Shown here: piece by piece, positions 1 through 12,158 of the stretch | Layout of the letters: the number at the start of each line of letters is the position of its first letter | How positions within the stretch are numbered: position 1 is the first letter of the stretch | Source of the DNA: Phycisphaerae bacterium | GTDB taxonomy: Bacteria; Planctomycetota; Phycisphaerae; Sedimentisphaerales; Anaerohalosphaeraceae | Assembly (NCBI GenBank): GCA_012729675.1 | Contig: JAAYCR010000060.1 | Coordinates: 1 to 40,424 of the forward strand | Direction: 5' to 3' | Length of the DNA: 40,424 nt | Notes under the pieces: generated by a model | Told to the model about the DNA's origin: nothing | Seen by the model: only the letters and a program-made list of their open reading frames with translations | Database searches by the model: none | Position numbers and translations under genes: made by a program

Positions 1-3000
1 AGTTGACGTTAAATAAGTAGCCGCCGCCCCCGGTAAATTTCAGATACAGGTCATGCGGCCCGGCCGCGCCGCTGACCGGGCAGGAGCGAGTGGTCCATGT
101 CTGCCAGCCCCCGGTGTTTGAAACCGCGCAGGTTCCTATCTGCGGACCGGTCAAACTGTCCAGATACAACTCAATATTGCCGCCGCTGGCGTTCGATGCC
201 ACCCTCGCGTGAAATGTAATCGCGCCGCCGAAATCGATGTTGTTGAAAACGAGATAAGAGCCGTTCTCGATATATCCGACATTTTGGCCGCCTTCGCTGC
301 TGGACTCGGTCTGGGTATTTGACTGAGTATCGTAATCTTCCGCTTCGATCCGCAAATAGGCCGAACGCGGCGGCACATCTCCATAGGCATACAAAGCCAT
401 CTCGGACAATTGAATATCACCGGCGCCGTTGTTGGCGAGGATATTCAATCGGTAGTACCGGTAAGCCCCCGGCGCTGAAACGGAATACTGCTTTGTCAGT
501 AAACGCGATTCCCAGGATTGCCCGCTTTGAGCATCCAGTGTCGCCCAGTTGATTCCGTCGTTGGAACCCTGAAGCTGCCAATCGCGCGGGTCGCGTCCCG
601 GCTCGTCATTGGCGCTGGACAAATCATAGCGTGTAACCACCCATTTGTTGCCCGGTCCGAAATCATATTGCAGCCACCCGGTCGATCCCAGCGAGGCCCC
701 CGTAAACCATTTCGTAGCGGTCGTACCGTCGAAAGCTTTGTCGGCGCCCTCGTTTGCAGTGAGATGCTCAGAACTGGCGAAAGCCGTACCGCCTGTGGCA
801 CGATTCTGAAACGTCGTACTCGGTACGGCGACTACCGTCTTGGAATAGGCGCTTTCATAAGAGGGCTTAACGGATGAGACGCGATAATAATAACTCGTTC
901 CGTTAGACACCTCCGTATCCGTAAAACCCGGATCAGTCAGCGTCGCAATGAGCGTGTACGGACCGGTAGCCGTGGTCGAACGTTTCAGATGGTAACTCGT
1001 TGCCCCCGCGGACGCCGACCAGTTCACCCACACCCTCGCATTGTCCGGCGTGGCCGTAACATCGACCGGTACCGGCGGCGGCCCATCCAGGGTGGTCGCA
1101 GAGACTTCCGCACTGTCTTCACTGTATCCCGAATCATTGCCTGCCGAAATGACATAATAATAAGTCGTATCGCTTGCCAGAGCCGTATCGCTGTAATGGA
1201 TGGTGGAAATGTCCGATGCAAGTGTTGTATAAGGTCCGCCGCTTACCGTCCCGCGTTTAATCCTGTAATACACGGCCTCCGCAACGGCAGTCCATGTCAG
1301 ATCGATTCGGTTATAACTGATCGCTTCCGCCGCCAGATCAGCCGGAGGATCGGGCAAAATCGGAGTGATCCTGTACGACATACCCGCCTGTGTATCAAAG
1401 GAGGTAAAACCATTCTCCAGTATGGCCGATACGGGCGTATCATCAAGCCGCGTCACAATAAAGATGCCCTTCACGCTGCAGGGCCGGCCGACAAGCGACG
1501 TGATCGTCCCTTCGATAAAGTTGCCGTCTTCCCATGCCAGATCCACCTCAAAGCCGCCGCGTGCCCTTAATCCGCTCACTGAGCCTGTCTGAAAGGCCAC
1601 CGTCGGCAAGGCCGGGAGCAGTTCAATATAATCCAGATGCGATTGCAGCAGCATCTCGGCGATCCCCGAAGTCCCGCCGAAGTTGCCGTCGATCTGGAAC
1701 GGCGGATGCGCATCGAACATATTGATGTATGTGCGCTGCGAATGCAGCAGCATCCTGAGCAGATCATAAACATGATCGCCGTCCTTAAGCCGTGCCCAGA
1801 GATTAATCTTCCAACCCAGGCTCCAGCCCGTTGACAAATCACCGCGTTCGATCAGAACCGTTTTGGCCGCTTCGGCCAGGACCGGAGTTTGTTCAACGGT
1901 TATTTGGTTGCTTGGGTACAGCCCGTAGAGATGCGAAACATGACGGTGATCGGTAATGACATCCACATCCCTGAGCCACTCCTGAAGCTGACCGCGACGG
2001 CCGATCTGCATCGGGGGCAACTGCGCCGAAGCGTCGCTGAGCTGCGTCTGAAAAGCCGCATCGACGCCGAGAATCTCTGCCGCACGGCGAGTGTTTTCCC
2101 ATACATCATACAAAATCTGGCTGTCCATCGTTGTCCCGTCAGTCATCCAGGCGGAATCGCCCGCATACGTGTAACCATGCTCGGGTGACACGGTCGGCGC
2201 CGTCACCAGCCAGCCGAATTCCGGATGCTCGACACTGTAATCCAAAAAAAACTGTGCCGAGCTTTTCATAACAGGATAGACGTCCGCCAAAAAGGCCTCA
2301 TCTTGTGTAAAGAGATAACGTTCCCATAAATGCAGTACCAGCCAGCCGCCGCCCGTAGGCCACCCTCCATACTGGGCGCCGTCAACCGGCGTGGTCAATC
2401 GCCAGATATCCGTATTGTGGTGCAGCACCCAGCCGTCGCAATCATAATGATTTCGGGCCGTAACGGCCCCGGTCACCGCAACCTCCTTGGTCAGTCTAAT
2501 CATCGGTTCGGCCAGTTCGGACAAATTCGCCACCTCCGCCGGCCAATAATTCATTTCAAAATTGATATTGGTGGTATATTTACTGTCCCATGACGGATTA
2601 AGGCTGTCATTCCAGATACCCTGAAGGTTGGCCGGCTGGGTACCCGGACGGGAACTGGCAATCAGCAAATAACGTCCGAACTGAAAGTACAGCGCTGCGA
2701 AATCGGGGTCATTGCCCGCGGCAAATGCATTCCGACGAAGATCCGTGGTTTGGGTTTCATTCGCCGTGTGCCCAAGGTCGATGGATACGCGCCTGAACAA
2801 TTCCTGATGGGCCGCGATATGGTCTTCCCGCATCTGTGCATACGTACGGCTTGCAGCGGCAGCAAAAGTCGCGTCGTTTCGCGCCGAAGGATTGCCGGTG
2901 ACATCATTATAGCTGACAAAATTGGTGGCGATGGCAATTTGAATGGTTACGGCGTTTGCCGCAGCGACCGAAATCGTACTGCTGCTCACATCCAATGTGC

Positions 3001-3736
3001 CGCCTTCATTAAGAATTTTCACGCGGCATTCATAATTCATTCCGGCGGGAACCCCTTCGTGAGAACGGTTTGTTCCCGTCATACGCAACACATTCGGCGC
3101 CAATGCTGTCACCGAAGCGCTCATCGGCGTGTTCATAGCGGCGGTAAAAGAAATACTGCCGGATTGATCCGCCGTGATGCGGACGACGATCAACTGATCC
3201 ACCGGGCTGGCGAAATACTCTCGCGTGTACGTCACACCGCCGGAGGTGTACCGTGTCCGAGCAACCGCCGTATCCAGATCCAATTGGCGGGTATAATCGG
3301 CAAAGGAACTGTGACCGGCAAAATTCAGAGTTATATTGCCGACGGTCTGGTATGCCTGACCATGATGGGTGCCCATCATGTTATTATTATAAATATTTTG
3401 AGCTGTGGTTCGGCTGCCATAAAATATTTCCTGACGTACCTGGTCGAGATAATTCTTCGCCGTCGTACGGGAGGGGTCATTGGGCCGTCCGGTCCATAAT
3501 GTATCTTCATTTAACTGAATGCGATCCGTGACAACATTGCCGAAAACCATGCCCCCCAGTCGGCCGTTTCCAATCGGCAATGCCGCTGTCCATTCGTTGC
3601 CGGCCGCGGTGTTATACCACAATCCCCAGTGACTCAAATCTGCAGGCCGCCCTTGGGCAGTGTTGGCCATTGTCACAAGACACCCGCATAATATCAAAAG
3701 CATACAACGACTGACAAGCAATGTCTGTTTAGCCAT
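1..3736 (-). CDS. GH95 family alpha-L-fucosidase/galactosidase, modular, 3' end outside the window
   Basis: Secreted glycoside hydrolase; an open frame runs from ATG 3736 to the window edge (1245 codons) without a stop. The start has GGGGA about 10 nt upstream. An N-terminal hydrophobic stretch ([13 protein letters not shown]) is the signal peptide. Family GH95 is recognised from [13 protein letters not shown] and [12 protein letters not shown] near residues 50-75, [12 protein letters not shown] (N390, N392), SPEHGY (E519, expected acid) and FQIDGNFGG (D683). After about residue 790 come two fibronectin type III domains (~795-885 and ~886-970), an F5/8 type C/CBM32 domain (~972-1112, [15 protein letters not shown]) and a CBM6-like domain (~1120 to the edge, [12 protein letters not shown]). 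Only the last residues should be missing. It should release alpha-L-fucose or alpha-L-galactose from glycans. A threonine two residues before N390 may bias it toward galactosides (inference). It has no co-directional partner in the window. Confidence 0.9.
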
Positions 3737-3772
3737 GATACTTTTCCCCAAGAGTTTACTTATGTTTATGGT

Positions 3773-3792
3773 GTAAATCCATGCAGATTTAC
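3773..3792. promoter_or_regulatory. 20-bp dyad in the GH95 leader (operator candidate)
   Basis: GTAAATC and GATTTAC form a perfect 7-bp inverted repeat separated by 6 nt (CATGCA), 37-56 nt upstream of the GH95 start codon and downstream of the predicted promoter. The size fits a dimeric repressor site, or a small mRNA hairpin; no cognate regulator is identified here. Confidence 0.35.
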
Positions 3793-3926
3793 TGATTTTC
3801 TTCGATGTGTTTTCCTGACTAACCTGAAATTTTGCATCGCCTCCATAACTTTCTATAACAGAGTCAAATGTTAATCAGTCTTGGCACACCCCATAAAAAA
3901 TGAACAATCAACATCGCAACATCATC

Positions 3927-3954
3927 ATTATAGCATGTTATTTTTGAGATTCAA
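3927..3954 (-). promoter_or_regulatory. Promoter candidate for the GH95 gene
   Basis: On the minus strand a -35 TTGAAT (3949-3954) is followed after 16 nt by a perfect -10 TATAAT (3927-3932). Transcription would begin near 3920 and leave a leader of about 185 nt before the GH95 ATG. Seen directly; activity is inferred. Confidence 0.55.
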
Positions 3955-4195
3955 CCATTTAGTCTGTATTTTCGACGAAATAAAGTCCACGCTTAAAATA
4001 AAACAGTTCCGCCAAGTCTTCTTTTAGACTCCGTTCAATCGCCCCCTCAATTTCTCGCTTATGAATAATGAGCTATCAAGCACTCCGATACGGAGGATTC
4101 TGATAAAAATAGCCAATCGGCCAAAAGAATTCTCAACCCAATTGGACAAGCGGCGGAAGGCGGACTAACGAAAAACAGGGCGGAATGCCGATAAA

Positions 4196-5005
4196 TTGAG
4201 AAAAAGTATAGTTTATTCGGGATTGTGGAAATTGGACGTTTTCGCCTCATTTGAAGAGACGCTGCGGCGGATCACTCCCATGCTGTTGGCCGTACCAGGG
4301 GTGATCATGGGGGTGACGGGGCTTTTTTTATGGCTTGGCGGGCTGCGGGTTCTGCGGCCGTTGGCGGCGTTTGTCGCAGCCGTGTCGGGGTTTGCGTGTG
4401 CCTGGGCGTTTACGAGCCGGGACATGCTGCCTTTGGTGAGCCTGACCGTGATCCCGGCGGCGATTGCATTAATTGTGGATAAACCCGTCGTGGTACTGCT
4501 GGCCGCAGTGCTGGCGGCCGGGGCGGTGCTGGCGTATCCGCTGTTTTCGGATGTCGGCTTGCGACAGGCCGTATATGACCAAGTAGGGCCTGTGCCGACC
4601 GCCGAGGATAATGTGCTATTTGAGGCCGAGACATATCTGGAAACAGTCCGGCACTGGGCAGTCGCATGGGGCAAAGGATATTGGGCCGAATTGGCTGACG
4701 GCTGGAAAATTGCGGCGCTGGCCGCGGCGGTTGGGGTCGCCGTGGCGGGGATCGCGGCCTGGCGGTGGGTCTGCGCACTTACATGTGCGACGCTCGGCAC
4801 GGTGATGATTATGCTCGGACTGACGGCGGTGGTGCTGTCGAAGGGGACGCAGACGATCCCCTACCTGGCGGACAAACAGCAGTATGTCTGGGTAACAATG
4901 GCGGGGATGATCGCGGCCGGAGCTATCTTTAATCGGCTGCTGTGCCCGGTGAAAGTAAACACGAAAAAATCCAGGGACTCTCACGAAAAGGGAGATCAGA
5001 AATGA
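4196..5005 (+). CDS. Multi-pass membrane protein, DUF4203/TMEM198-like (first of a coupled pair)
   Basis: Function unknown. The protein (269 aa from TTG 4196; ATG 4280 would give a shorter form) has about seven Gly/Ala-rich hydrophobic segments, interrupted near residues 120-165 by a polar stretch (PTAEDNVLFEAETYLETVRHW). The layout GLRVLRPLAAFVAAVSGFA resembles DUF4203/TMEM198-type proteins (weak resemblance by eye). It is related to the next gene: ITPMLLAV..GLRVLRPL matches ITDLSWLH..GWRIFRVL, and TLGTVMIMLGLTAVVLSKGTQ matches GLGGSIIMMVGVLALVYQYETQ. That similarity begins upstream of ATG 4280 and so supports a start before it. No clear Shine-Dalgarno site decides the start. Its TGA overlaps the next ATG by 4 bp, so translational coupling is likely. 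Confidence 0.7.
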   Translation: MRKSIVYSGLWKLDVFASFEETLRRITPMLLAVPGVIMGVTGLFLWLGGLRVLRPLAAFVAAVSGFACAWAFTSRDMLPLVSLTVIPAAIALIVDKPVVVLLAAVLAAGAVLAYPLFSDVGLRQAVYDQVGPVPTAEDNVLFEAETYLETVRHWAVAWGKGYWAELADGWKIAALAAAVGVAVAGIAAWRWVCALTCATLGTVMIMLGLTAVVLSKGTQTIPYLADKQQYVWVTMAGMIAAGAIFNRLLCPVKVNTKKSRDSHEKGDQK

Positions 5006-5688
5006 TGAATCCGATACTTTTGGCACAAATAGAAGCGTCACAGAACAGCCGTGACTTTCACGGCGAGGCGCTGAATTTCATCTGGCAGCAGATTACCGAT
5101 CTAAGCTGGCTGCACGCGGTGGTCGCGATTTCTGTCGGAATCGTATATATGCTGTACGGATGGCGGATATTCCGCGTGCTGGTGGTGATATGTTTCGGTT
5201 TGGCCGGGATGTTCTTGGGGATTTTTGCCGGGGGGCATTTCGGTTCATCGATCTGGGGCGGCCTAACGGGTTTGGTGCTGCTGGCGGTTGTTTCCGTACC
5301 GCTGATGAAATGGTGCGTTGCGGCCTTGGGCGCGGTGGCCGGCGGCGCGCTGACCGGGGCGGTGTGGTATGCCTGCGAGCTGCCGCTGGATTACATCTGG
5401 GCCGGCGTGATCATCGGCGTCGTGGCCGGCGGGCTGATGTCGTTTATTCTGCTCAAAACATCGGTCATGCTGTTTACCGGCCTGGGCGGCAGTATCATTA
5501 TGATGGTGGGGGTCTTGGCGCTGGTGTATCAATACGAAACGCAGGTGCTGAACCCACCGACGCAGCATATTTACAATTCCGTATATTACAATCAATGGTT
5601 TTTGCCGGTGGTCGTTATTCTGCCGACGATTATCGGGATGATCATGCAAAATAGCTTCATCAAGCACGAACGCGACTGGGAAATCTGA
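5002..5688 (+). CDS. Multi-pass membrane protein, paralogue of the preceding gene
   Basis: 228 aa, starting MMNPILLAQIEASQN. The chosen start is ATG 5002, with GGGAG about 8 nt upstream and a 4-bp ATGA overlap with the preceding gene. About seven hydrophobic helices begin at residue ~35 and are rich in Gly (GGHFGSSIWGGLTGLV, GAVAGGALTGAVWY), with a loop near residues 175-200 (YETQVLNPPTQHIYNSVYYN) before the last helix. The N-terminal stretch of about 33 residues is polar. The family is not identified with confidence; the repeated GWRIFRVLV/GLRVLRPLA element suggests the DUF4203/TMEM198 type. The pair may form a heteromeric membrane complex (inference from coupling and paralogy). Confidence 0.75.
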   Translation: MMNPILLAQIEASQNSRDFHGEALNFIWQQITDLSWLHAVVAISVGIVYMLYGWRIFRVLVVICFGLAGMFLGIFAGGHFGSSIWGGLTGLVLLAVVSVPLMKWCVAALGAVAGGALTGAVWYACELPLDYIWAGVIIGVVAGGLMSFILLKTSVMLFTGLGGSIIMMVGVLALVYQYETQVLNPPTQHIYNSVYYNQWFLPVVVILPTIIGMIMQNSFIKHERDWEI

Positions 5689-5880
5689 CCCGAAAATCGC
5701 ATATGGGATGGGAATACGTGAGGAGATGAATCGACAATAAAAGTATTGGGATAAACACCTAAAGACGCGAGTGGATGTTACGTTTACTGAAGGCAAGCTC
5801 CCCAGAAAAAAAACTGCCGATGAAAGGATAACGGATTAATGGTTATTCATTCATTACCAACGTCGCCGATGCAATCAGGA

Positions 5881-5922
5881 ACAAGCCAAGTACGGCGGGC
5901 CGAGCAAACGCTGTCAAACGCT
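5881..5922 (-). repeat. Dispersed repeat R1, copy 1
   Basis: Read on the minus strand it shares TTTGACAGCG, CGGCCC and CTTGGCTT in the same order and spacing with 39914-39953 on the plus strand. The copies are imperfect, at roughly three-quarters identity by eye. Confidence 0.55.
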
Positions 5923-6081
5923 AAAGACAGGGGATAGTTTTCGGTTGCGGAATGCCCTGTATTAATGGTCGAACGCGCAGGTTCGCCCCTGTGGTTTCTA
6001 AGCACTCCATCATAAAACTCAAAATAAAGCACGATTCTGTTTGACAAACACAAAACTTACCACCTTAATACCCCCCCCGCA

Positions 6082-6177
6082 GCACGGACATCTTGGCCGT
6101 GGCTCGTAGCATGGGCATCCTGTAAGAACTGGAGGAAAAATGAAAAAACATTCCGACATCCTGAGTTCTGTGTTCTG
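6082..6177 (+). repeat. Dispersed repeat R2, copy 1
   Basis: It begins with GCACGGACATCTTGGCCGTG and ends with GACATCCTGAGTTCTGTG plus TTCTG. The same two blocks, in the same order, occur at 40227-40302 with a few substitutions and a shorter middle. The first block is a near-palindrome. Confidence 0.6.
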
Positions 6178-6438
6178 GCGGCTGGAAGCAGGAAGCGGGA
6201 AGCGGGAAGCTGAAAATGAACAAACGACCCCAAATTTCTCATATGCAAAAACCATAAAGTCTTATTCTAAAAGTGTTTACTGATAACCGACAACTGTTAA
6301 CTGTAAATAAACGAACCCAAATTGTTGCCCCGAAAAATATTCTCACAGACAGAGCAGATGACAACTCAATATTTCTTTGTCATTTTAGCCTGTGACGGAT
6401 AGACTGGCCGCTTTTACCGGCTAAATTAACCAACAAAT

Positions 6439-7866
6439 ATGGATAAACCCGAATATAAACCTGATATCTCTGACGGCGGTGTCCCGGTCGTTCGTGACCG
6501 CGGCCTCGACCTCCGTCTGCGTACCCTCAACGGTACGCTCTGGCGGCTGACGTGGCCGGTCATCGTTGAAAATATGCTCTTTACGATGGTGCATATCGCC
6601 GACACGCTGATTACCGGCTGGCTTCGGGACGAGCGAATGCTGGCGGCGACGGCGTTGGCGGGGCTTTTGACATTTTTAATGAATGCCCCCTTTATTGCGT
6701 TTGGCGCGGCCGCAAATTCGATTGTCTCACGCTCGTGGGGCGAATTGGATTTCAATGCCGCACGTCGGTGCGCCGGGATTACCGTCGGTCTGAGCATTGC
6801 ACTGGCGGCCGTCCTCTCTATTGTCGCCTGGCCGTTTGCCGATACCGTCGTCCGCCTCCTCGGCGCCGACGATCAGGTTGCGCCCATCGGCGGCCGCTAT
6901 CTGCGGATATTGCTGCTCAGTGGTTTTTGCGGCTACCCGATGATGATCTCCAACGCCGTGATTCGAGGCACCGGCAACACCCGCACGCCGATGCTTATCG
7001 CCGGCCTGATGAACGGCGCCAATGTTTTGACCAGCACCATTCTGGCGTTTGGCTGGCTGGGATTCCCCGAAATGGGCGTCTATGGCGTGGCCTGGGGGAC
7101 AGTCATCGCACGCAGCGTCGGCTTCGCCTGTTCGGGCGGGTATTTGTTTCACAGCCGCGGCATCGGCGTTGCGACGGCTTATTTGATCACCCTCGAACGC
7201 AAATTGATGGCCCGTCTATGGCGTTTGGCGTGGCCGCTGCTGACCGAGCGAATGGGCAGCTCGTTCGTTCATCTGATTTTTATGCGGCTGGTTGCCGGGT
7301 TGGGGACGACCATCCTTGCCGCCCACCAGATTACCCTGCAGGTCGAGTCTCTGGCGTTTATGCCCGCATGGGCGTTGGGCATCGCTGCAACCACCATCAC
7401 CGGACAGGCCATCGGTGCAAGGCTGGAGCATATCGCCGAGGCCGCCGTCAGAAGGATGATGATGCTTGCGACAATCGTGATGCTTTCGCTTGCGCTGCTG
7501 TTTGTGGTCTTCGGCCCCAATATCGTTCACCTCTTTGGCGCAACGGACGACGTAATCGCGCAGACCGCCGTCGCCATCCGCATCTCCGCTGCCGAACTCC
7601 TCTTTATGGCCTGGACATTTACTATTATGGGCGCCCTTCGCGGCGCCGGCGACACAGTCTCTCCACTGATCGTCGGCTTGGCCAGTACCCTGATTTTTCG
7701 CCTCGGCGGTACCCTGCTGCTGGCCTACGTCTTTGACCTCGGACTGCCCGGCGTCTGGATCGCGACCGCGGTGGACTGGGCGGTGCGCTCGGTAGGGCTG
7801 GGGATTTTCTTCGCGCGCGGCGCCTGGAAACGACTTCACGAACAGGAAAAACTCCGCTTCGGATAA
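6439..7866 (+). CDS. MATE family multidrug/cation exporter
   Basis: Inner-membrane antiporter of the MATE (MatE, NorM/DinF-like) family, expected to export organic cations or other toxic compounds using an ion gradient. 475 aa is a usual length. The two-fold repeat of six helices is visible: LWRLTWPVIVENMLFTMVHIAD (~35-56) opens the first half and LWRLAWPLLTERMGSSFVHLIF (~258-279) opens the second. GAANSIVSRSWGELD and RGTGNTRTPMLIAG are typical of the first half, and MGALRGAGDTVSPLIVG of the second. The N-terminal ~30 residues are polar. The start is ATG 6439, with no clear Shine-Dalgarno site. It converges on the pseudouridine synthase gene with a 16-bp gap. The substrate cannot be told from sequence. 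Confidence 0.9.
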   Translation: MDKPEYKPDISDGGVPVVRDRGLDLRLRTLNGTLWRLTWPVIVENMLFTMVHIADTLITGWLRDERMLAATALAGLLTFLMNAPFIAFGAAANSIVSRSWGELDFNAARRCAGITVGLSIALAAVLSIVAWPFADTVVRLLGADDQVAPIGGRYLRILLLSGFCGYPMMISNAVIRGTGNTRTPMLIAGLMNGANVLTSTILAFGWLGFPEMGVYGVAWGTVIARSVGFACSGGYLFHSRGIGVATAYLITLERKLMARLWRLAWPLLTERMGSSFVHLIFMRLVAGLGTTILAAHQITLQVESLAFMPAWALGIAATTITGQAIGARLEHIAEAAVRRMMMLATIVMLSLALLFVVFGPNIVHLFGATDDVIAQTAVAIRISAAELLFMAWTFTIMGALRGAGDTVSPLIVGLASTLIFRLGGTLLLAYVFDLGLPGVWIATAVDWAVRSVGLGIFFARGAWKRLHEQEKLRFG

Positions 7867-7882
7867 AACGGCGCCGTGTGGT

Positions 7883-8695
7883 TCACGTCTCGATAAACGC
7901 CAGCGGCTCGCCGTTCATAATGCGTTCCAGATCCTCAGGTTCTTCGAACGCACTGATATGGATCGACGGGCCGGTGTGCTTGGCCAACAGCTTGATGGCC
8001 GACAGAAAATTCTTGTCCGGCCGTGCCACAAAGGTCTGATAGCCGGCGTGTTCGTCTGCGCCGATAGGGATCGCCAGTTGATACGCATGCAGCGTCAGCC
8101 GTTCGATCAGCGGGGGTTCCTCCCGGCCTGATTTGGGGCGATAGTCCTTCTTGAACGCCGAGAGCATCAGCGGCGTTGTCTGGTGGCCGTATATCGGATC
8201 GATTGCCAGCGGCATCCCGCGATGGGAAAAATGAACACGGATTTGATGCGTCCGGCCCGTGATCGGCTGAGCCGCCACCAGCGCCGGGCCGCCAAAATCC
8301 GCCAGCCGCCGCCACAGCGTATGCGCCGGTTTACCCAGCCGCGGATGAACATGCATCGCTCGCGGATTTCGCTGACTCCGCGCGATCGGATCCTTGATCG
8401 AACCGCACGCCTTAATAACCGGGCCTTTGACAATGGCCAAATAGAGCTTATTGACCAGCCGTTTGGCGAATAGCCGCGAATACCGGCTCTGCGCATCCCG
8501 ATGTTTGGCGATCAGCAAGACGCCCGACGTTTCCTTGTCCAGCCGATGCACCAACCGAAACGGCTCGGCCGGGCCAAGCTGCGCATTGAGCAATTGCAGC
8601 ACATCCGCCTCGCCTGTCCGATCCGCCGTCACCGACACCCCCGTCGGCTTATTGAGAATCAGTATATTCGTATCTTCAAACAATATCGGCAGCAT
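7883..8695 (-). CDS. RluA-family RNA pseudouridine synthase
   Basis: Converts a uridine in rRNA or tRNA to pseudouridine. 270 aa from ATG 8695. The family signature HRLDKETSG lies at residues 50-58 with the catalytic aspartate at D53, and the C-terminal part of the fold shows PITGRTHQIRVHFSHRGMPLAIDPIYG. There is no S4 domain, so it is closer to RluA/RluC catalytic-domain-only members. An upstream in-frame TTG at 8758 would add 21 residues and overlap the ymdB-type gene by 3-4 bp; I prefer the ATG because the domain begins right after it (ILFEDTNILILNKP). It is probably last in an rny-ymdB-pseudouridine synthase unit. The exact RNA target is unknown. Confidence 0.88.
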   Translation of the reverse strand: MLPILFEDTNILILNKPTGVSVTADRTGEADVLQLLNAQLGPAEPFRLVHRLDKETSGVLLIAKHRDAQSRYSRLFAKRLVNKLYLAIVKGPVIKACGSIKDPIARSQRNPRAMHVHPRLGKPAHTLWRRLADFGGPALVAAQPITGRTHQIRVHFSHRGMPLAIDPIYGHQTTPLMLSAFKKDYRPKSGREEPPLIERLTLHAYQLAIPIGADEHAGYQTFVARPDKNFLSAIKLLAKHTGPSIHISAFEEPEDLERIMNGEPLAFIET

Positions 8696-8754: not shown

Positions 8755-9606
8755 TCAAAATCCGTTACAAATGTCCGGCCGGCCGTCGTCGCTGTCATAG
8801 ACAAGCGTATCGCCGTCGCTTTCCTCGCAGATGACCAGGCGGCGGATATGTTCGGCCTTTTTGGTGTGCGAGTCCACCGTGACCAGAATCGCGTTGATCC
8901 GCACGTCATTGGCGGCGATATCAAACGGAAACGGCATCTGCGTGCGAAACGCCTTGACCACACTTTCGGCGTTGCGTCCCAGCACCGAATCGTGTGCCCC
9001 CGTCATCCCGATATCCGTAATGCAGGCCGTCCCTTTGGCGGTGATCCGTTCGTCAGCGGTCATGACATGGGTGTGTGTGCCGAACACGCAGCTTACCTTG
9101 CCGTCCAGGTAATAGCCCATCGCCACTTTTTCGCTGGTCGCCTCGGCGTGTACCTCGACAAACAGAATATCCGCCTCATTCCGCAGCCGCGGCAGCAGCG
9201 CGTCAATCTTGGCGTAGGGGCAATCCGCCGGCTTCATATAGATGCGTCCGATCAGCGTTACGACGCCGACCGTTGCACCTCTGGATGTCTGATAGATCGC
9301 GGCGTCCTTGCCTGCCGAGTACGCCGACAAGTTGGCCGGGCGGATGATGTTCTTTTGGGTCTCCAGCGTCGGGATGATGTCTCGTTTGCGATAACAGTGG
9401 TCGCCCAGCGTGACCAGATGCACACCGTATTTGCACAGCTTGTCGTAAATCTGCGGCGTCAGACCCGATCCGCCCGCGGCGTTTTCGGCATTCGCGATGA
9501 CGCAGTCCACCTCCAGTTCCTCAACCAGACGCGGCAATTTGTACGAGAGAATGCGCCGGCCGGGACGACCGACCACATCCCCGATACACATTACATTCAC
9601 TTTCAT
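8755..9606 (-). CDS. ymdB: YmdB-type (TIGR00282) metallophosphoesterase
   Basis: Cytoplasmic dimetal phosphodiesterase of the B. subtilis YmdB family, known to hydrolyse 2',3'-cyclic nucleotides and to be encoded beside RNase Y in many bacteria. 283 aa, the usual length. Visible metal-site motifs: CIGDVVGRPGR (residues ~7-17), ANAENAAGG (~38-46), LGDHCYRK (~67-74, where many homologues read GNH), EVHAEATSEK and GTHTHV. The start ATG 9606 has a strong AGGAG. It lies 54 nt downstream of rny on the same strand, consistent with co-transcription and a shared role in RNA turnover. Function is inferred from family knowledge. Confidence 0.9.
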   Translation of the reverse strand: MKVNVMCIGDVVGRPGRRILSYKLPRLVEELEVDCVIANAENAAGGSGLTPQIYDKLCKYGVHLVTLGDHCYRKRDIIPTLETQKNIIRPANLSAYSAGKDAAIYQTSRGATVGVVTLIGRIYMKPADCPYAKIDALLPRLRNEADILFVEVHAEATSEKVAMGYYLDGKVSCVFGTHTHVMTADERITAKGTACITDIGMTGAHDSVLGRNAESVVKAFRTQMPFPFDIAANDVRINAILVTVDSHTKKAEHIRRLVICEESDGDTLVYDSDDGRPDICNGF

Positions 9607-9620
9607 ACGAGCTCCTTTCC

Positions 9621-9662
9621 AATTGACGATTGTTTATTGGTTCACATAGTCAATCGTCAATT
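9621..9662. repeat. Perfect 12-bp inverted repeat overlapping the rny stop codon
   Basis: AATTGACGATTG (9621-9632) and CAATCGTCAATT (9651-9662) can pair across an 18-nt loop between rny and the ymdB-type gene. The arm at 9662 includes part of the rny TAA (9661-9663). It is AT-rich with no U tract, so it looks more like an mRNA stem or a repeat word than a terminator. Confidence 0.6.
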
Positions 9663-11241
9663 ACCTGGCGTATTCAATGCAGCGCACTTCGCGCAGCAGA
9701 GTCACTTTGATTTCGCCCGGATAGGTCATTTCATCTTCGATCTTCTTGGCGATATCGCGAGCGGTCTTGACCGCCGAATCGTCGTTGATCTTCTGGGCGT
9801 CAACGATCACGCGAATTTCACGTCCCGCCTGAATGGCAAAGCTGCCTTCGACGCCTTCGAAAGCATTGGCAATTTCCTCAAGCTTTTCAAGCCGTTTGAT
9901 GTAGCGTTCCAGCGTCTCACGCCGGGCGCCGGGGCGGGAGGCGCTGATGGCGTCGGCGGCGGCGATCAGCGGCGTATAAGGATTATCCGCCGGAATATCG
10001 CCGTGGTGGGCCTCGACCGCATTGAGAATGATCGGCGACTCCTTAAACCGACGCAGGAAGTTGGCCCCGATATCCGGGTGGCCGCCTTCGATTTCACGGT
10101 CCATCGCTTTGCCGATGTCGTGCAGCAGGCCGGCGCGTTTGGCGATGGAGCCGTCCAACCCCAGTTCGTCGGCCATGACCTGGGCCAAAAACGCCACTTC
10201 GACGCTGTGCCGCAGGACGTTCTGCCCGTAGCTGGTGCGGTAGTGCAGTGCACCGAGCATCCCGATGATCTTGTTGTTCAGGCCGCGGACATCGACTTCT
10301 TCGGCGGCTTCTTTGCCGATCTGGATGACCCGGCTGTGTACGTCTTTTTTGGTCTGGTTAGCGACCTCTTCAATGCGGGTCGGGTGAATACGCCCATCCT
10401 GAATCAGACGCTCCATACTCAGACGAGCGACCTCGCGGCGGATGGGGTTAAAACCGCTGACGACAATGATGCCGGGGGTGTCATCGACAATCACGTCAAC
10501 ACCGGTCGCCTTTTCAAACGCCCGAATGTTCCGTCCCTCGCGGCCGATGATCCGACCCTTCATATCGTCACTGGGGATATCCACCATCGAAACACTGACT
10601 TCACAGGTCTGCTCGGCGGCGTATCGCTGAATCGCCAGATTGATGATTTCTTTGGCTTTTTCCTCGGCCTGCTCCTCGGTCTGGGCAACCTTACGCTGAA
10701 TCAACTGACCCATTTCGCGGTCGCACTCTTCCTCCAAACGCTGGAGAAGCAGTTCGCGGGCCTGTTCGACATTGAGCGAGGTGATTTTCAGGAGTTGATT
10801 CTTCTGCTGAGTAATTAAAGAGGACAACTCTCTACTTTTCTCTTGATTCACCTGAAGTTGATGCGAGGCCTCTTTTTCGATTTCATTAACCTTGCGTTCG
10901 CGTTGCGAAAGTTGTTCGCTTCGTCGTTCGACTACATCCTCGCGTTTGGAAAGCTGTAATTCCTGAGTGCGAAGCTCTTTTTCTTTGGAAGAGGTCTCGG
11001 CGGAAAACTGCTCGCGTTTTTTGATCATTTCTGAAGCCGCATCGAGTTTGGCTTCTTTGATGATGGTCTCGGCCTGTTTCTTGGCCGTCTCGACGCGAGC
11101 GTTCAGTTCCTGTTCAAATGCTTTCGCACGTGCTTTGATGACGATCTGCTGAATGACAACAACCAGCAAACCGCCGAAAACTAACCCCACAATGATCCAC
11201 AATACGACCAATGGGCCGCCACCTTGAGCAATAATGTCCAT
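9661..11241 (-). CDS. rny: Ribonuclease Y
   Basis: Membrane-anchored endoribonuclease that starts mRNA decay. 526 aa, the usual length. One transmembrane helix lies at ~8-32 (PLVVLWIIVGLVFGGLLVVV), followed by a long charged coiled coil (~35-200), a KH domain (~215-280: GRIIGREGRNIRAFEKATGVD) and an HD domain (~330-430) with LLHDIGKAMDREIEGGHPD, and a C-terminal region ending EIKVTLLREVRCIEYAR. The start ATG 11241 has AAGGGATG upstream. The ymdB-type gene follows. About 490 nt upstream lies a sigma70-like promoter followed by a hairpin-rich segment, which may be an rny leader or a separate RNA. Confidence 0.96.
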   Translation of the reverse strand: MDIIAQGGGPLVVLWIIVGLVFGGLLVVVIQQIVIKARAKAFEQELNARVETAKKQAETIIKEAKLDAASEMIKKREQFSAETSSKEKELRTQELQLSKREDVVERRSEQLSQRERKVNEIEKEASHQLQVNQEKSRELSSLITQQKNQLLKITSLNVEQARELLLQRLEEECDREMGQLIQRKVAQTEEQAEEKAKEIINLAIQRYAAEQTCEVSVSMVDIPSDDMKGRIIGREGRNIRAFEKATGVDVIVDDTPGIIVVSGFNPIRREVARLSMERLIQDGRIHPTRIEEVANQTKKDVHSRVIQIGKEAAEEVDVRGLNNKIIGMLGALHYRTSYGQNVLRHSVEVAFLAQVMADELGLDGSIAKRAGLLHDIGKAMDREIEGGHPDIGANFLRRFKESPIILNAVEAHHGDIPADNPYTPLIAAADAISASRPGARRETLERYIKRLEKLEEIANAFEGVEGSFAIQAGREIRVIVDAQKINDDSAVKTARDIAKKIEDEMTYPGEIKVTLLREVRCIEYAR

Positions 11242-11349
11242 TTTTTGTCATCCCTTCTTGGCAAACTTTATGCGTAATTGATTGTTTGCCGAATTCGTGC
11301 AGGAAGTGCCAGCAGAACAAAAAGAAATGGACAAAAATGGGCTTTAGAG

Positions 11350-11730
11350 ATAAAAAATGCGCAAAACCGCCGCTCGTCCCGGTAGATTATTCATCCATCC
11401 GAGCCATAACTCTTTTAAACTAGGCTGTTTGCGGCATCGTGCCATGTGTTCTTCCAGTTATCGACCCGTTCCTGACTTTCCTTGCCGGCGGGTCACTGTC
11501 ACACTTTCTTATCCCATCATTTACTTGACCATGTTCATCGACTCGTTCGGATTCTGGACTTGGCGGACATTGTTTTGCCCTATCCGCCTTTCGCCCCACC
11601 GACCGACAATCGATGTTCTCAAAGCTCTGCGTACAACCTGCATTCAGCAAATTGTTTTCTCGACCGGCATTGTTCATCAATGCCGACATCGACTTTCCAC
11701 TATTACAGACGGCTCGTTTTCCAAAGAGCC
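11350..11730 (-). ncRNA. Candidate structured RNA or long 5' leader upstream of rny
   Basis: About 380 nt with no credible protein, placed directly after a promoter at 11737-11764. Read on the minus strand it holds several local hairpins: GGCTC/GAGCC (11726-11730 with 11711-11715), an 8-bp CGGCATTG/CAATGCCG stem with a 5-nt loop (11665-11685), GGCGGA/TCCGCC (11562-11588), GACCCG/CGGGTC (11463-11494) and a small GGCA/TGCC stem (11433-11443). A T6 run at 11351-11356 may mark the 3' end. GGAAAGTC occurs twice. I checked by eye for RNase P, tmRNA, SRP and 6S signatures and found none complete. It could be a regulatory leader of rny. Confidence 0.4.
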
Positions 11731-11736
11731 ACCCTC

Positions 11737-11764
11737 ATCATACACTATCGTCCTTTTTGGTCAA
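11737..11764 (-). promoter_or_regulatory. Promoter of the rny-upstream RNA/leader
   Basis: TTGACC (11759-11764), 16-nt spacer, TATGAT (11737-11742) on the minus strand, followed by GAGGGTGGC at the expected start point. It closely resembles the promoter at 28156-28182, including the downstream GGGTGGC. Confidence 0.55.
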
Positions 11765-12158
11765 GTAAAAATACTTAAAGAATCAAATTGGGCACATTCT
11801 GTTCTCAAACTAAGCCAACTCTTTAGTGCCGCCTCAGCGACACGAATGCCAAGCTTTTTGGCCGTGTCAATCCCGAAGGTATCCTAAGTAATGTCGTCGT
11901 TCCAGTTGTTCCACAGCGTCGCTCCCTGATGGGCGCTGGGTTTGCCTCCGACGGCCATCACCTCAAAGCTCTGCATCGCGGTCAGAATCTTTTCGATGAC
12001 CAGTTCCTGCCCGCCATTTCGGAATGAACCGACGCCGATGATGAGAATCTTATCCTCCAGCCTGACCGTCTCGGCGACTATTGCCGATTTCGCAACCATG
12101 CCCGCCGCTGCAATCCCCGCCGTATTGATGAATGCTCGTCTGTTGATCTGCTTGTCAT
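11761..12158 (-). pseudogene. Remnant of a Tat-exported flavodoxin/NADPH-dependent FMN reductase-like gene
   Basis: ATG 12158 has a good AAGGA, but the coding frame that follows is shifted by one base: only two bases separate ATG from the frame reading KQINRRAFINTAGIAAAG, a twin-arginine signal. The frame continues KILIIGVGSFRNGGQELV and ATLWNNWNDDIT and then meets TAG at 11884-11886. After the stop the same frame still reads DTFGIDTAKKLGIRVAEAAL, matching the usual C-terminus of the family, and ends with TGA at 11761-11763. The region between the N-terminal KILIIG strand and GSFRNGGQE appears deleted, since family members are about twice as long. So there are one frameshift, one nonsense codon and a probable internal deletion. 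It is the last member of the ars-type operon. Family assignment is by motif memory. Confidence 0.7.

Follow-up and report, generated by a model that had tools for sequence, protein, structure and literature searches.

The DNA upstream of the RNase Y gene (rny) in the window, the whole 40,424 nt stretch of contig JAAYCR010000060.1 from a Phycisphaerae bacterium that was analysed, is probably the 5' leader of the rny mRNA, equipped with its own strong promoter and acting as a cis-regulatory, two-state translational switch of the Sedimentisphaerales, with RNase Y as its likely signal. The element is a new RNA family, missing from Rfam 15. RNase Y initiates mRNA decay in many bacteria, and most of what has been established about its control comes from Bacillus subtilis. 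This conserved and covarying leader provides a testable planctomycete case of a ribonuclease governed by the structure of its own mRNA.

The rny gene (9661..11241, on the minus strand, as are all of the leader features described here) encodes a protein of 526 aa with RNase_Y_N (Pfam, 3.3e-35), KH_1 and HD domains. Directly downstream of rny is a YmdB-like phosphodiesterase gene (8755-9606; Pfam 1e-96), and this neighbouring pair is also known in Bacillus. A minus-strand ORF of 71 aa with no Pfam match is present at 11884-12099. The TTGACC-16-TATGAT promoter described by the first-pass annotation is present at 11764-11737, the motif scan placing the -35 TTGACC at 11764-11759 and the -10 TATGAT at 11742-11737, with a spacer of 16 nt. 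It is of the sigma-70 type. From the predicted transcription start to the last base before the start codon the leader is ~488 nt long (11242..11729), based on its sequence and on the leaders of relatives.

Folding and sequence identify a GGCTC...GAGCC hairpin at the 5' end (11711..11730). This is followed by a variable 5' domain, in which the perfect 8 bp stem with a 5 nt loop that had been reported previously was seen again in the sequence (CGGCATTG ATGAA CAATGCCG, 11665..11685). The sequence of this hairpin is absent from all rny leaders of relatives and the hairpin is therefore not conserved. A 23 nt exact match to 11664-11686 is found at 1501-1523 of L012, from the genome of another family, where it sits inside a longer perfect inverted repeat unlinked to rny; the match is either due to chance or a shared terminator-like sequence. 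Next to the core domain (11536..11615) are a local hairpin, P2 (CAATTTGC/GCAGGTTG, 11634..11654; folding and sequence), and the 5' strand of a long-range helix, P1 (11616..11652), the distal part of which is excluded by P2. The 3' strand of P1 (11284..11327) is overlapped by the anti-Shine-Dalgarno strand TTTTTGTCCATTTCTT (11322..11337), both having been located by cognate pairing tests and the latter also by comparison of the two states. A local hairpin evident in the sequence, GGCAAAC...GTTTGCC (11260..11290), lies immediately 5' of the ribosome-binding site, which is contained in the Shine-Dalgarno (SD) arm AAGAAGGGATGACAAAAA (11242..11259; pairing tests and sequence).

The description of this region as ~380 nt of structured sequence without a believable protein was borne out. 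The 386 nt concerned fold at -128.5 kcal/mol, versus -107.0 kcal/mol for shuffled sequences (z -3.9, 0 out of 100), and whole leaders from 22 dereplicated species have a mean folding z of -3.4, compared to -0.3 for the rny coding sequence. The longest ORF in the leader (89 aa) has no Pfam match and no leader ORF common to the relatives was found. The T6 run is present (11352..11357), although it is not the end of the element: the terminator scan found no terminator-like hairpin there, and partner strands are present beyond it at 11337-11284. Because a conserved partner strand is located beyond the T6 run and the structure extends as far as the ribosome-binding site (11259-11242), a 380 nt RNA ending at T6 is not supported. 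The first-pass annotation had suggested either a small RNA or an RNase Y leader. The leader is well supported, as all genome-wide matches for which the following gene was checked adjoin rny on its upstream side and conserved pairing extends into the ribosome-binding site, while a separate small RNA is disfavoured because the conserved pairing runs past the T6 run to that site. A processed fragment may be generated from the leader.

The expectation that the element belongs to no known RNA family was correct as far as Rfam is concerned. There were no matches over the window at the gathering threshold nor at E <= 10, and none over 20 relatives at E <= 0.5. No tRNA or tmRNA was found in the window. 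Identity with 6S RNA (RF00013), RNase P RNA (RF00010) and tmRNA (RF00023) was rejected, there being no match in the window and the real ones being on contigs C46, C89 and C23. Within open-licence PubMed Central, no paper on this RNA was found.

At the DNA level, the region was found in 12 of 59 related genomes, including the window's own, with one of the 12 being the 23 nt hairpin match away from rny. Since this search reached so few genomes, a 149-position covariance model of the core, R1, was adopted and scanned over whole genomes, so that the location of the matches was not imposed. R1 has a single match in each of 28 of the 39 genomes of the window's family, including 18 of the 19 of high quality, with one further match elsewhere in the order. 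All 29 matches are directly upstream of rny, and none of the genomes scanned has a copy elsewhere. A TTGAC promoter is present for every one of the 29, with 322–381 nt from GGGCGAAAGG to the ATG. Promoter to start codon distances are 461–538 nt in 28 of these leaders, with the start codons of L018 and L024 set by hand; in the exception, L035, the distance is 405 nt and the transcription start has been assigned to a closer TTGAC. One family genome missed by R1, G009, was recovered when a broader model, R2, was applied to the rny upstream region. In G008 and G032 the contigs stop within the leader, and the other family genomes lacking an R1 match have no rny match or a partial gene, in a search that left out G005, G021, and G059. 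In family f2, R2 had matches at E <= 0.01 in 9 of the 10 upstream regions, and it also matched family f6. It found no match in the rny upstream regions of families f3, f4, f5, and f7. Using fast filters, R2 found nothing outside the order in 397 class and 392 phylum genomes, and nothing at the rny loci of other Phycisphaerae. The rny-anchored searches therefore carry the leader into other families of the Sedimentisphaerales, and none was found beyond this order.

Conservation and covariation in relatives were both found, as had been called for. The core domain consists of a CATCGAT...GTCGATG helix, an internal loop, and a terminal stem. Across 27 sequences, the core helix has 95 two-sided changed cells versus 33.8 (34 +/- 6) when shuffled, with slid controls giving 14–38, and 89.7% of its cells are paired. 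The internal loop within this covarying helix is near-invariant, with GGGCGAAAGGC facing GNCAAGUCC; in the window it has GGGGCGAAAGGCG on the 5' side (11585..11597) and CGCCAAGTCC on the 3' side (11556..11565). On the 3' side of the core, for example in L013-L022, there is a conserved GUGGAUAAA/GUGAUAAA stretch, made up of a G followed by A/U-rich sequence, resembling reported RNase Y sites. A possible pseudoknot, UCC..GGCA..GGA..UGCC, can also be seen there by eye in the same leaders. RNAalifold results from the full-length alignment were uneven outside the core, and cognate and non-cognate duplex tests were used instead.

P1 joins the strand just before the core with a strand 40–110 nt before the start codon and is 19–35 bp in length, being 30 bp in the window with an energy of -36.5 kcal/mol (with 11327-11284). 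Among 22 dereplicated species, cognate P1 strands pair at -31.7 kcal/mol versus -25.1 kcal/mol for non-cognate strands, and 0 of 20000 permutations reach the cognate value. For the SD and anti-SD strands the values are -15.4 versus -13.5 kcal/mol (14 of 20000 permutations), energies that gain from the pairing of purine-rich with pyrimidine-rich strands regardless of function. As a positive control, the core helix gave 4 of 20000. For six control regions elsewhere in the leader or coding sequence the counts were 579–8638 of 20000, with the best of these indicating that some relatedness is left in the permutation tests.

The 3' strand of P1 also pairs with the Shine-Dalgarno region, which makes the two pairings mutually exclusive. 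The anti-SD strand has at least 4 nt in common with the P1 3' strand in 24 of 28 leaders (median 8 nt), so that two exclusive conserved pairings, one of them over the SD, are present as in a translational RNA switch. The other four show hardly any overlap between the two pairings, with no nucleotide used by both in L032 and L041. When each state is forced, the median energy gap between them is 4.7 kcal/mol across the 28 leaders. In the window, the P1 state is at -170.0 kcal/mol versus -167.6 kcal/mol for the SD-hidden state, and in the unconstrained ensemble it is the SD-hidden pairing that is preferred (mean probability 0.62; P1 0.00).

Despite having no R2 match, most of the f7 leaders keep a promoter 500–620 nt before rny and both of the P1 strands. 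The cognate test, run separately for f7 P1, gave 0 of 20000 permutations. For its covariation score, calculated on the 16 leaders minus three with poor motif matches, 91% of cells are paired and 3 of 500 shuffles reached the observed value. The f7 rny leaders (e.g. L068-L080) are even longer and have conserved blocks of their own, GGATTGTGGGTTGTCCCGTA, GAGTGAAACGAAATCTG, and GAAAAGGATTTCGTAATTCAC.

These features suggest a model with two states. In the first, the 5' strand beside the core would be held in P1 by the strand 40–110 nt before the start codon, leaving the SD largely free. In the second, P2 would replace P1 and the released 3' strand would pair with the Shine-Dalgarno region, turning translation off. 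Such a switch would be expected to operate in cells, presumably with the conserved core as its sensor. The most likely signal, by analogy with B. subtilis, Staphylococcus aureus, and the RNase E of Escherichia coli, would be RNase Y itself: by binding or cutting the leader, surplus enzyme would lower its own synthesis. RNase Y would in this way control its own message, as the first-pass annotation had considered. A ligand or another protein would suit the near-invariant internal loop just as well as RNase Y. A more ambitious proposal, a possibility that falls short of being probable, is that this is a new, order-wide class of RNA in which the core senses RNase Y or the RNA-decay load and toggles between the long-range helix and the SD-hiding helix as a dedicated RNase Y feedback switch.

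An unlikely alternative is that the GGGCGAAAGGC/GNCAAGUCC loop binds a metabolite or ion and that this riboswitch sets the same translational switch. A near-invariant loop within a covarying frame and an alternative pairing that hides the SD are both as expected for this. Riboswitches usually precede several genes of one pathway, whereas rny alone is controlled in every match checked, and 460–540 nt is long for a riboswitch. The strong promoter kept in all 29 leaders, the high degree of structure, and the T6 run in the window's genome could instead indicate a stable small RNA acting in trans, either separate or processed from the leader, with rny merely downstream, in the way that 6S RNA is upstream of another gene in proteobacteria. 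This is improbable, given that the P1 3' strand is past the T6 run, 40–90 nt before rny, that the anti-SD strand and the SD arm covary, that no copy occurs away from rny in the genomes scanned, and that RNase P RNA, 6S RNA, and tmRNA are elsewhere in the genome.

The leader might also be passive, its structure protecting the mRNA or offering cleavage sites as bait for RNase Y, with the SD alternative being incidental. Cleavage along the whole of the B. subtilis leader, described in PMC10303841, is in keeping with this. The arm immediately 5' of the start codon also takes part in the covariation, something that bait would not need, and the exclusive states are nearly balanced, making a passive role unlikely as well. 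That the hairpins arose by chance, or that this is a decayed coding region, is barely credible. The 8 bp hairpin itself would suit such an origin in not being conserved, yet the family-wide matches, cognate pairing, core covariation, and fold stability of the leaders contradict it, as does the lack of an ORF common to relatives for a coding region. The two-state leader is the preferred reading.

Membership of rne5, the Rfam name of the E. coli rne 5' leader, or of the rne-II motif, which adjoins an RNase E gene on its upstream side, was rejected because neither covariance model matched and the downstream gene encodes RNase Y, not RNase E. Like the E. coli rne leader, this is a long structured 5' UTR before the gene of the main decay-initiating endonuclease, yet there is no match in sequence or structure and the enzyme family is different. 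The E. coli leader is a feedback sensor of RNase E (PMC10303841 and its reference 54), working by RNase E binding at a leader stem-loop and mRNA cleavage, and is not known to use an SD switch. The rne-II motif (RF01756) is likewise a conserved structured RNA before a ribonuclease gene, in this case from the Pseudomonadales (PMC2864571), and differs in phylum and enzyme, with no Rfam match between the two. In B. subtilis, RNase Y autoregulates via its own mRNA, including the 5' UTR, and the same gene's leader is part of this. According to PMC10303841, it is much shorter, at 164 nt, and is controlled by cleavage, RNase Y cutting all along it and the early coding region (the first ~100 nt of the ORF); most of the control is in the coding region, and the passages on this leader report no conserved switch. 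A candidate RNase Y site has been reported in the S. aureus enzyme's own transcript (PMC4608709). With translational riboswitches the leader shares alternative pairings by which the Shine-Dalgarno sequence is hidden or exposed; unlike them, it matches no known aptamer and has a single downstream gene. As a conserved structured leader before the gene of a decay endonuclease, it has the structural character of a ribonuclease autoregulatory leader and is analogous to the RNase E leaders, not homologous. The RNA and its place before rny appear to be new, while the class of mechanism, a ribonuclease leader with an SD switch, is already known.
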